Under the pieces are notes generated by a model. It searched no databases. It was not told the DNA's origin and saw nothing but the letters and a program-made list of their open reading frames with translations. The position numbers were made by a program, and so were the translations under genes. A stretch of 64,000 bases of DNA. Origin: Prorocentrum cordatum (Eukaryota; Sar; Dinophyceae; Prorocentrales; Prorocentraceae). The stretch spans positions 491,501 through 555,500 of the forward strand of contig CAUYUJ010014338.1 of the NCBI GenBank assembly GCA_963575745.1, in the 5' to 3' direction. This document shows, in pieces, positions 52,334 to 59,130 of this stretch (within the stretch, counting starts at the first letter, position 1; each line of letters begins with the position of its first letter).

Positions 52334-52389
<56 letters not shown>
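52285..52389. repeat. (CAT)n microsatellite, middle block
   Basis: About 105 bp of CAT with a few ATG/CCT interruptions, between the 2.1-kb element and the tyrosine-recombinase retrotransposon. It abuts both directly. Confidence 0.95.
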
Positions 52390-52606
52390 CATCTCCTGCT
52401 ACACCCCAGGCCACCCGAACATTTCTGTGTGGCGGGCGTCCGGGGCGATTCCACCAGAGGCGCAGCAGCGAGCGAACGAGACACATGGAAGAGAGAGAGG
52501 AGGAGGAGGAGGAGGAGGAGGAGGAGGAGGAGGAGGAGGAGGAGGAGGAGGAGGAGGAGGAGGAGGAGGACCCAACGCACCCATACAACACCGAGGAGGA
52601 GAGAAA
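52387..52606 (-). repeat. Split repeat B, terminal copy
   Basis: It begins CATCTCCTGCTACACCCCAG (plus-strand reading) at the (CAT)n junction, has GGCGATTCCACCAGAGGCGC, then a GGA tract, then GAGGACCCAACGCACCCA. It aligns with 52722-52878 over its whole length, the main difference being GGA tract length. Confidence 0.9.
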
Positions 52607-52630
52607 GAGAAAGAGGGAGAGGAGGGCGGG

Positions 52631-52726
52631 CCAGAAAAAGACTTGAGCCGACGCGGTTGCGGCGCATCAGCGCGACCACGACGGCCCTCGGTTCCACCTG
52701 AGATGAGATTTGCAAACACGGCCATC
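52631..52726 (-). repeat. Split repeat A, internal copy
   Basis: About 95 bp match 59037-59130 with five substitutions and a 2-nt length difference in an A run, counted by hand. The inner end CCATC fuses directly with the start of the internal B copy. Confidence 0.9.
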
Positions 52727-52878
52727 TCCTGCTACATCACAGGCCACCCCAACGTTTCTGCGTGGCGGGCGTCCCGGGCGATTCCACCAGAGGCGCAGCA
52801 GTGAGCGAACGAGACACACGGAAGAGAGAGAGGAGGAGGAGGAGGACCCAACGCACCCACACAATACCGGGGAGGAGA
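52722..52878 (-). repeat. Split repeat B, internal copy
   Basis: It starts CATCTCCTGCTACATCACAG (plus-strand reading), shares its first bases with the end of the internal A copy, and carries only four GGA units where the terminal copy has about 25. Confidence 0.9.
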
Positions 52879-52899
52879 CCCGAGCCCGAGAGGAGATTT

Positions 52900-57231: not shown

Positions 57232-58452
57232 CTAAGACTTCCCAGCCTTGCCCGCGCCGCCGCCCTGTCCACCGCCACGGCCGCCAGCGGGCGGGCGGGG
57301 CAGCTGCCGCTCCTCGCGCGCCTTGCGGCGCTCCTTCGCGATGGCCGATTCGGCAGCCAGCTGCTTCGAGATCCACTCGGACAGGGTGGGCGCCACCGCG
57401 AGCCCGCGCGTGGACTGCATGCCCGTGAAGAAAAACTGCCCATCGCCTCCGTTGCCCAGAAAGCGCGAGCATACCAGCTTGTCCTTGTACCGTTCGTCGC
57501 AGAGCTGGAGCTGTCTCGCGACGAGCTCCATCGCCGCCAGATTCGACCCATCGACCTGGTCGCACGACTGCGCGACCTGTATGATCTTGGAGTACTCGTG
57601 GTGCATGGACACGATCGGGTCGTCCACAGGCACCGTCGAGCCAAGGGCCGCCTCCCAGGCCAAGTGGTGACCCATGGGCGAGCCGCCGTTCTCCACCTGG
57701 TACGTCGCAACCCAGTGGTAGGTGGAGGGACCCGGGATGGGCCAGTCTGGGAAGGACGTGGGCCGCATGAGCTGGACGCCCTCCCTGAACTCATTGTGAC
57801 GTTGGCCCTGCGAGTCGTGCGCCATCGCGAACGTCCGAAGATCCCCAAGTCCGCCACCTCCGCCTCCATCGACTCCGGTGTTCCCAGCAGCAGCGGCGCC
57901 GTCATCTCCTCCAGCAGGCGGCCCAGCCACCAGTGCTGCGAGCCCCGCAAGCCCGCCTCCAGCGGCAGGCGCGACCGCCGCGCCTGCAGGGGCTGCCGGG
58001 GCGGGGGCGGCGGCGGCGGCGGCTCCGCCCACGGCCGCGGGGGCGCCCGCAGCGATGCCGCCTCCCAGGGGCCCACCGCCGGCGGGAGCAGCGAGGGCAG
58101 GGAGCGCACCGCCAGCGGCACCAGCACCAGCAGCAGAGGCAGCAGCCACGGGGCCCGCCCCAGCGGCCTGGTCGTGCTCGGCGATCTTCGCGGCACCCAA
58201 AGCGCAGGCCTGCGCGAGCTGGGCGACTGTCGGCGGCGCGGCGAAGTCGTACCGTCGAATCCCTGCTGGGATGACGGCTCCCGGCGGCGCCGCGGCGTGG
58301 CCCCATTCCTTCCACCCATTGCGGATGTCAGCATTTCTTCCGTCGCACTCCTCCACGTAGACGTCAAAGTCTGGCGTGAGCACCGCGTAGTGCTCCAAGT
58401 CTCGAGACGACATGGCAACCACGATGCGCCAAGCGGGGCGGCGGCTCGTCAT
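57232..58452 (-). CDS. Gag-like ORF of the retrotransposon
   Basis: An intact 406-codon frame runs from ATG 58452 to TAG 57234-57232. Residues 1-60 are polar (DLEHYAVLTPDFDVYVEECD). Residues 80-200 are an Ala/Gly/Pro-rich linker. Residues 205-370 are globular and helical (AMAHDSQGQRHNEFREGVQL; FPDWPIPGPSTYHWVATYQV; FTGMQSTRGLAVAPTLSEWI). The tail is basic and Gly-rich (KERRKAREERQ, then a GGRGGG stretch), as in nucleic-acid-binding Gag tails. There is no CCHC knuckle. Its place upstream of the RT, with the stop 13 nt before the RT-side frame opens, is the Gag position. I infer packaging of element RNA. This is the only long ORF in the element with no lesion. Confidence 0.7.
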   Translation of the reverse strand: MTSRRPAWRIVVAMSSRDLEHYAVLTPDFDVYVEECDGRNADIRNGWKEWGHAAAPPGAVIPAGIRRYDFAAPPTVAQLAQACALGAAKIAEHDQAAGAGPVAAASAAGAGAAGGALPALAAPAGGGPLGGGIAAGAPAAVGGAAAAAAPAPAAPAGAAVAPAAGGGLAGLAALVAGPPAGGDDGAAAAGNTGVDGGGGGGLGDLRTFAMAHDSQGQRHNEFREGVQLMRPTSFPDWPIPGPSTYHWVATYQVENGGSPMGHHLAWEAALGSTVPVDDPIVSMHHEYSKIIQVAQSCDQVDGSNLAAMELVARQLQLCDERYKDKLVCSRFLGNGGDGQFFFTGMQSTRGLAVAPTLSEWISKQLAAESAIAKERRKAREERQLPRPPAGGRGGGQGGGAGKAGKS

Positions 58453-58482
58453 ACTCGACCCAGATCTCGTCGCCCACTGATC

Positions 58483-59016
58483 TCATGAGAAACGGCCCAG
58501 CCCACCAACGCGAGGACCACGGCGCTCAGGCGAATCCACCCGCACAAGCTGTGGTGCGTGCGGGTTCGGGTCGCCCCCGATGGCGGGCCGCCTGGCGCGG
58601 CCCCGGCAAGGGATACGGCCCGCCGCCACGGCAAGCGAAAGCCCCCGGCGCAGCAGCTCGGAGGCCAGGAGCAGGAAGCCGCACAGCGCCGCCTCCCAAG
58701 CGAAGGAAGGCCAGGGCCCGCTCCCTGCCTCGCAAACGGGGCAGGGCGGGCAGGGCGACGGGCAGGCGCGCGCCGCTTCCCCCGCGTCCAGGGCAGCCGC
58801 CAGGCAGTCAGCCAGCGGGACCTGGACCCCAGCGGCCTCACCCGGCGCTGGGAGCGGGCCCGCCTCGAACAGCGGGGGCGGCGCGGCCGCCTGCACGGGC
58901 GCCGAAAGCGCCTCGGGGACCGCGGGCGCGGTCGGCTGAAACCACCAGGGAGCCAGCAGCAGCAGAATGGCGTTGCTCGCGAGCGGGAGGCCGAACCCGG
59001 TGCCACTGAAGCGCAT
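58483..59016 (-). CDS. Small N-terminal ORF of the retrotransposon with membrane segments
   Basis: ATG 59016-59014 is 30 nt downstream of the spliced-leader-like 3' end in repeat A and opens 177 codons. It has a hydrophobic N-terminus (NAILLLLAPWWF), a CPSPCPPCPVC cysteine cluster near residue 92, and a second hydrophobic segment (AALCGFLLLASELLRRGLSL). From about 58570 the better coding signal is in another frame (LCGWIRLSAVVLALVGWAVS), again hydrophobic, so a frameshift may have truncated it. A membrane or envelope-like accessory function is only a guess. It could be the 5' part of the Gag reading frame. Confidence 0.45.
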   Translation of the reverse strand: MRFSGTGFGLPLASNAILLLLAPWWFQPTAPAVPEALSAPVQAAAPPPLFEAGPLPAPGEAAGVQVPLADCLAAALDAGEAARACPSPCPPCPVCEAGSGPWPSFAWEAALCGFLLLASELLRRGLSLAVAAGRIPCRGRARRPAIGGDPNPHAPQLVRVDSPERRGPRVGGLGRFS

Positions 59017-59036
59017 CCGGGCGAGGGCCTCACCCT

Positions 59037-59130
59037 CCAGAAAGACTTGAGCCGACGCGGTTGCGGCTCATCGGCGCGACCACGACGGCCCTCGGTTCCA
59101 CCTGAGATGAGATGTGCAGACACGGCCATC
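59037..59130 (-). repeat. Split repeat A, 5' terminal copy
   Basis: It matches 52631-52726. The outer end GGCCATC runs directly into (CAT)n. It contains the SL-like sequence at 59046-59066. Confidence 0.9.
59046..59066 (-). other. Spliced-leader-like sequence in repeat A
   Basis: On the minus strand it reads CCGCAACCGCG then TCGGCTCAAG. Against the 21 nt of DinoSL after its variable first base, 15 of 21 positions match without gaps, including the last eight. The internal A copy has the same sequence at 52662-52642. The first ORF starts 30 nt downstream. Confidence 0.4.

Follow-up and report, generated by a model that had tools for sequence, protein, structure and literature searches.

The 64,000-nt window analyzed here (Prorocentrum cordatum, assembly GCA_963575745.1, contig CAUYUJ010014338.1; all coordinates are those of the window) carries on its minus strand a retrotransposon of 6741 bp at 52390..59130, which has GATG (CATC on the plus strand) at both ends. 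The ends were set by comparing 11 copies, the window copy included, and this comparison kept the right end of the original prediction at 59130 while moving its left end from 52387 to 52390. The predicted A...B-A-B flanking repeats are present, and on the minus strand they run A1-coding part-B1-A2-B2. The 5′ terminal half-repeat A1 (59041..59130) and the internal half-repeat A2 (52637..52726), of 90 nt each, lie 6404 nt apart and are identical at 86 of 90 nt. The internal half-repeat B1 (52723..52880, from repeat comparison in the window and other copies) and the 3′ terminal half-repeat B2 (52390..52602, with an expanded GGA run inside) stand one on each side of the inner A and share a stretch of 124 nt that is 94% identical (52723-52846 and 52390-52513). 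B1 ends with the same GATG with which A2 begins (52723..52726), the putative junction of a circular form. The terminal repeats are direct, and none of the six inverted pairs in the window joins the element ends. As read from the sequence, the element lies between an (ATC)n microsatellite in its 3′ flank (52283..52389) and an (ATC)n-rich one in its 5′ flank (59131..59470), which together would represent the target. Rfam and tRNA scans of the window returned no match.

Within these repeats, the minus strand reads, in order, a 194-aa frame, a Gag-like frame, a reverse transcriptase (RT), an RNase H region, a tyrosine recombinase (YR), and a C5-type methyltransferase (MT); this is the predicted order, and it recurs in other copies. 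The 194-aa stop-to-stop frame (58483..59067) overlaps A1 and has tblastn matches in all 10 other copies, with a median pN/pS of 0.67 over 55 pairs; it is putative and not established as a gene. The 416-aa Gag-like frame (57232..58482), named Gag by position, likewise has matches in 10/10 other copies, contains stretches 72% identical to P. cordatum P0041, and shows a median dN/dS of 0.31, with no Pfam match. The RT (about 55902..56623) has stretches 66 to 76% identical to P0043; no Pfam match was found for the window pieces or for P0043, and the RT relative in locus L050 matches RVT_1 (positions 3-187 of 205, E 0.0013) below the Pfam cut-off. The RNase H region (about 55049..55690, in two frames, limits by eye) is kept in 9/10 other copies, and a match of its L052 relative to DNA_pol_viral_C (E 0.0037) again falls below the cut-off. 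The YR (53873..54854) is split over three frames and has stretches 72 to 84% identical to P0040. PF00589 is matched by two of eight YR relatives (best E 5.2e-5), and in the YR alignment R209, K249, R315, and W339 are invariant and a Tyr is kept in 6/8, which we take to be the catalytic residues of the family. The structural match of the YR model is Cre; since the model is poor (pLDDT 55.8), this match is only supportive. Overall, Pfam scans of the window pieces gave no usable match, the RT and YR matches being weak and limited to relatives, and neither did PDB sequence searches with the MT, the YR, or one open frame. With its RT and YR recognized in this way, the window element is supported as a split-repeat YR retrotransposon. 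The MT (53020..53733) follows in three pieces that change frame (53733-53563, 53558-53139, and 53133-53020). The element had been called complete, which holds for its ends and modules and fails for its coding capacity, as the RT and YR carry stops and the YR and MT change frame; this copy is therefore not coding-competent.

We searched the 4.13-Gb P. cordatum genome for the A repeat and for the MT protein P0005. For the A repeat, 40 of 113 first-look candidates were scored, and every one matched; these 40 included 11 pairs 3.6 to 6.4 kb apart, the window pair among them. The 10 other copies were chosen for their paired A among the 40, single matches being left out, so the A pairing itself is not independent evidence. 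Behind the coding part, B-A-B was found in 10/10 of them, the second B being partly matched in L011 and L018, and all modules stand in the window order in 9/10; the exception, L017, has neither RNase H nor YR and retains little of the MT. The P0005 search gave 10,777 first-look candidates, with 153 matches from the 150 scored. Among the 30 best-scoring MT loci, the YR lies directly upstream in 29 and A/B repeats downstream in 29; two of the 30 (L024 and L042) sit within copies already taken by A pairs. An MT confined to the window copy was thus rejected, as it recurs both in 9/10 A-paired copies and in the P0005 matches. The predicted place of the MT after the recombinase is confirmed in the window and by these 29 of 30 loci, and the module order and A/B repeats do recur in other copies. 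Copies without A/B repeats, an MT present solely here, and an MT of unrelated fold were all looked for, and none was encountered.

The layout extends to divergent relatives. L049, L050, and L052 encode MTs 47 to 49% identical to P0005 in the order gag-RT-YR-MT, these being the four modules searched for; each has A repeats of its own (86 or 116 nt, 99 to 100% identical) and B repeats of its own (145 or 167 nt, 96 to 99% identical). The layout common to these divergent copies must therefore be old, and the near-identical repeats indicate that some copies are young. L049-L052 and L054-L061 were chosen partly for long open frames. Taken together, we put at roughly 80% the probability that the element represents an abundant YR retrotransposon family of P. 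cordatum, with a divergent C5-type MT downstream of the YR, and that the window holds a decayed copy of it. Among gene models, P0002 comprises, by eye, a YR end with an MT and then a second RT-to-YR series followed by an MT-like motif I; the deposited models P0002, P0003, and P0041 seem to splice retrotransposon pieces into single proteins, and P0003 is named 'DNA-directed DNA polymerase' in UniRef.

The MT is under constraint. The window MT is 66 to 69% identical to P0005 and, over 145 aa, 44% identical to P0021, for which a confident structure model was available; the 50 best PDB rows for this model are all C5-cytosine methyltransferases. The predicted fold of this relative thus points to a C5 methyltransferase fold for the family. 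Motifs were counted over 43 loci, of which the 43rd, L017, is without MT, and L024, L042, and L053 were left out as repeats. The Cys of P-C-x-x-[FW]-S is present in 34 of the 42 loci with an MT and the Glu of ENP in 36/42; we take this PC Cys and EN Glu to be the motifs of C5-cytosine methyltransferases. The C5 class, originally proposed from PCSSW and LENP motifs, is accordingly supported by the motif counts and, as far as a model allows, by the fold rows of P0021.

Several observations weigh against this assignment. The fold scores are low (Foldseek TMq 0.27-0.42, root-mean-square deviation (rmsd) often >6; VIA rmsd 3.5-4.9), and what was modelled is P0021, which has 44% identity to the window MT, rather than the window MT itself. 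An Arg replaces the motif IV Cys in 6/43 loci. No MT reaches the cut-off of PF00145, the Pfam model for C5 methylases: the window pieces and P0004 gave no match, and one of 34 relatives gave E 0.12. This relative, P0021, fits the N6-adenine model MethyltransfD12 better (E 9.9e-4) than PF00145 (E 0.12), both matches covering motif I only. Finally, the CpG observed/expected ratio is 0.91-1.08 in the copies versus 0.89 in the rest of the window; CpG is therefore not depleted in the copies, and there is no trace of CpG self-methylation. Elsewhere, PHROGs gave one weak 'DNA methyltransferase' match (E 0.19), a single query with P0021 against viral contigs gave two pattern matches with no relative confirmed, and a single query with P0005 against prokaryote contigs gave 64 pattern matches, also with no relative confirmed.

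A second arrangement of the same MT family was seen in P0004, whose 1602-aa frame contains, by eye, RT, RNase H, MT, and then YR. Its MT, 29% identical over 67% of a 271-residue query, thus precedes the recombinase: RNase H, MT, and YR follow one another in a single frame, in contrast to the elements described above. In a tree of 41 MTs, for which 23 of the 33 P. cordatum loci tried were kept (uninterrupted stretches only), the P0004 group separates at 100/100 from the MTs that follow the YR, with a long-branch warning. The 'distinct lineage' of the original prediction is supported by this tree for the MT family only.

We then considered how the MT is encoded. In six of nine copies, a TAG a short distance ahead of the MT terminates the YR; the window, L014, and L016 have a sense codon at this place, and L017 and L018 are left out of this comparison. 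The relation between the frames could be scored at 28 loci, 13 of 41 having been dropped (12 with a stop in the YR and one without YR). Relative to the YR, the MT frame is at offset 2 in 19 loci, offset 0 in six, and offset 1 in three. The offset-2 frame is stop-free inside the YR in 26/28 loci. Compared with stops expected from shuffles that preserve the YR protein and its codons, it contains 4 stops versus 24.9 in the 19 loci not chosen by frame, and 0 versus 18.7 in the nine divergent loci, which were chosen partly for long frames. In the remaining frame, stops exceed the expected number, at 106 versus 87.9 and 83 versus 58.1 in the same two sets. The MT is in the RT frame in 6/9 divergent copies and shifted in three, and at least 19 MT matches lie in open frames of at least 1700 aa (L049, 1826 aa; L052, 1799 aa). 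A probable reading is that one frame extends from the RT across the YR to the MT, with the YR gene overlapping it, nested between RNase H and MT. Because the offset-2 frame avoids stops and the MT is in the RT frame in 6/9 divergent copies, we hold the nesting of the YR in pol with moderate confidence. Two other readings were discarded: the MT as a YR fusion and a single 941-aa RT-RNase H-YR frame in L049, where RT and YR are in different frames.

The evidence is not all in favor of nesting. As the divergent copies were chosen partly for long open frames, a stop-free MT frame is favored among them; the loci are related, so their counts are not independent; and the per-locus p-values for stop avoidance range from 0.03 to 1.0, none being decisive singly. 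RT and MT share a frame in 4/10 copies of the window's own, older family, which does not exceed chance (one third), and the MT shares the YR frame in 6/28 loci and is at offset 1 in 3/28. The strongest competitor, a credible minority reading, is that the MT is a separate gene after the YR, translated from its own ATG by re-initiation or from a trans-spliced message, with the open frame a by-product of base composition. Compatible with this are an ATG that L049, L050, and L052 have a short way past the stop of the YR, the position of the MT mostly outside the YR frame, and the Met with which P0006 begins just before motif I. Stop avoidance is, however, confined to one frame, the third frame exceeding the expected stops, and by eye no common ATG is found in the window's family.

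The closest published system is SymbioDIRS-Dnmt3 of Symbiodinium, a DIRS element of A-coding-B-A-B layout with a C5 methyltransferase (de Mendoza et al. 2018, PMC5890265). It shares with our element this repeat plan, RT, RNase H, YR, a C5 methyltransferase, and a dinoflagellate host. Its DNA methyltransferase (DNMT) lies in the same open reading frame as the RT; the MT here is in the RT frame in 6/9 divergent copies, with three shifted, and in 4/10 of the window family. It is nevertheless unlikely that the P. cordatum element is simply SymbioDIRS-Dnmt3 in another dinoflagellate. The published DNMTs were identified by a PF00145 search and group with Dnmt3, and they are placed by description within Pol rather than 3′ of the YR (PMC5890265). 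The P. cordatum MT belongs instead to a C5 family silent in Pfam, lies 3′ of the YR, and is mostly in another frame than the YR; recognition by PF00145, a feature of the published domain, is absent from the window pieces and P0004 and reaches E 0.12 in 1/34 relatives. PF00145 domains do occur elsewhere in the P. cordatum genome (3,988 candidates; 123 scored, 129 matches), and among the matches listed none coincides with the MT loci when compared by eye. These PF00145 C5 methylases are highly repeated, many of them in frames of some 380-480 aa that recur, and are reminiscent of the DNMTs published as borne by long interspersed nuclear elements.

Other relatives share parts of the plan. PAT elements are defined by split direct repeats together with a methyltransferase, and Ngaro as lacking one (PMC4157794). 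Our element resembles PAT in its A1-B1-A2-B2 direct repeats and MT domain; the DIRS-class methyltransferase known before 2018 is described as Dam-like (PMC5890265), whereas here the fold predicted for P0021 is C5-like and the MethyltransfD12 match is limited to motif I. Ngaro and VIPER share the split direct repeats and internal repeats downstream of the YR and are described as without methyltransferase (PMC4157794, PMC6681497), in contrast to its presence in the window and 9/10 other copies. DIRS1-like elements resemble ours in a pol with RT, RNase H, and methyltransferase and in a YR frame that can overlap pol; they insert without duplicating the target, by recombining at the short junction of a circle, a mode that the present element may share (PMC3266345). 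They differ in their inverted terminal repeats and 3-bp junction, as opposed to direct repeats here, and in that the catalytic YR lies in their non-overlapping 3′ end, whereas here the MT follows the YR (PMC3266345). The uniqueness originally claimed for split repeats joined to a methyltransferase thus does not hold, the combination being a PAT feature and a C5 enzyme with A-B-A-B repeats being that of SymbioDIRS-Dnmt3 (PMC4157794, PMC5890265). Compared by layout and MT, the plan is close to both; new here are the different MT family, its place after the YR, and GATG targeting. In the portions of the open-licence literature available, we found no report of this MT family, the post-YR order, or targeting of GAT repeats.

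The copies also share a type of insertion site. They start with an exact GATG in 8/11 cases, the others reading GACG, AGTG, and TATG; the B1/A2 junction is GATG in 7/11; and 3′ ends are GATG in eight of the nine located, those of L011 and L018 not having been located. We scored the share of in-phase GAT triplets in the 30-nt flanks, with a threshold of 0.4. This was reached upstream of 10/11 copies, and in the eleventh, L016, the downstream flank is GAT-rich instead; the background is 32 of 22,706 windows (0.14%) or, for a more appropriate control, 5% (29 of 559) of the window's other GATG sites. In L049, L050, and L052, whose end sequences differ, B and A overlap by exactly these 4 nt, and the flanks are again rich in GAT. 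Such a placement of GATG, at the termini and the B/A junction and next to GAT repeats, is what would be expected if the YR inserted a circular form using a short core that matches the target. Insertion of this kind, with a 3-bp junction, has been described for DIRS1 (PMC3266345). A short target duplication would be indistinguishable inside a microsatellite; what is observed is GATG at the ends and junction. That the GAT targeting is an artefact of copy survival or choice seems quite improbable: the copies were indeed chosen by A-repeat pairs and not randomly, but the three divergent copies, selected through their MT, likewise have GATG ends next to GAT repeats and an identical 4-nt junction. 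Next to the element, a 240-nt direct repeat (50196-50432 and 52053-52288, 86% identical) flanks a 27-nt minisatellite; its left copy begins where an (ATC)n tract stops, and its right copy ends at the element's tract. The pair may represent another element, a non-autonomous one, that shares this microsatellite.

These features suggest a life cycle in which the RNA would be copied to DNA, the split repeats would let the copy close into a circle with GATG as its B-A junction, and the recombinase would exchange this GATG with a GATG in a (GAT)n run; with exchange at GATG, no target duplication would arise. The MT would then methylate cytosines of the new DNA or its neighborhood, whether to pass it as host DNA or to shape the chromatin of the element. 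For SymbioDIRS, both DIRS methyltransferases tested produced 5mCG in yeast, and their proposed role is to methylate the cDNA (PMC5890265). By analogy, the MT here may have the same role. The absence of a CpG difference has been published for SymbioDIRS (PMC5890265), and the lack of CpG depletion here agrees with this while not itself demonstrating methylation. Activity on adenine, like that of the Dam-like methyltransferase of DIRS and PAT, is highly improbable, as the sub-threshold MethyltransfD12 match at motif I stands against an MT alignment with no DPPY-type motif by eye and listed fold neighbors of the model that are C5 enzymes. The full scheme, in which the YR gene is wholly nested in pol so that about 1 kb codes for two proteins, the GATG core targets GAT microsatellites, and the MT marks new DNA, is put forward tentatively, as possible rather than likely.

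If the nested-YR reading is true, these elements could be a large unrecognized dinoflagellate source of C5-type methylases, with 10,777 first-look MT candidates in one genome. The published survey of retrotransposon cytosine methylases used the Pfam C5 model; given a second family to which this model is blind, DIRS elements scored as without DNMT may have one after all. Where a YR retrotransposon lands could be predicted by a simple rule, the GATG junction, that lends itself to testing; the scarcity of stops in the frame that crosses the recombinase gene likewise provides a test case for nested genes in a eukaryotic element.

The window also contains two 114-nt inverted copies at 32396-32509 and 38331-38444, which are 96% identical, and self-alignment revealed tandem arrays at 6683-8526, 19862-20628, 36142-36865, and 62830-63205.

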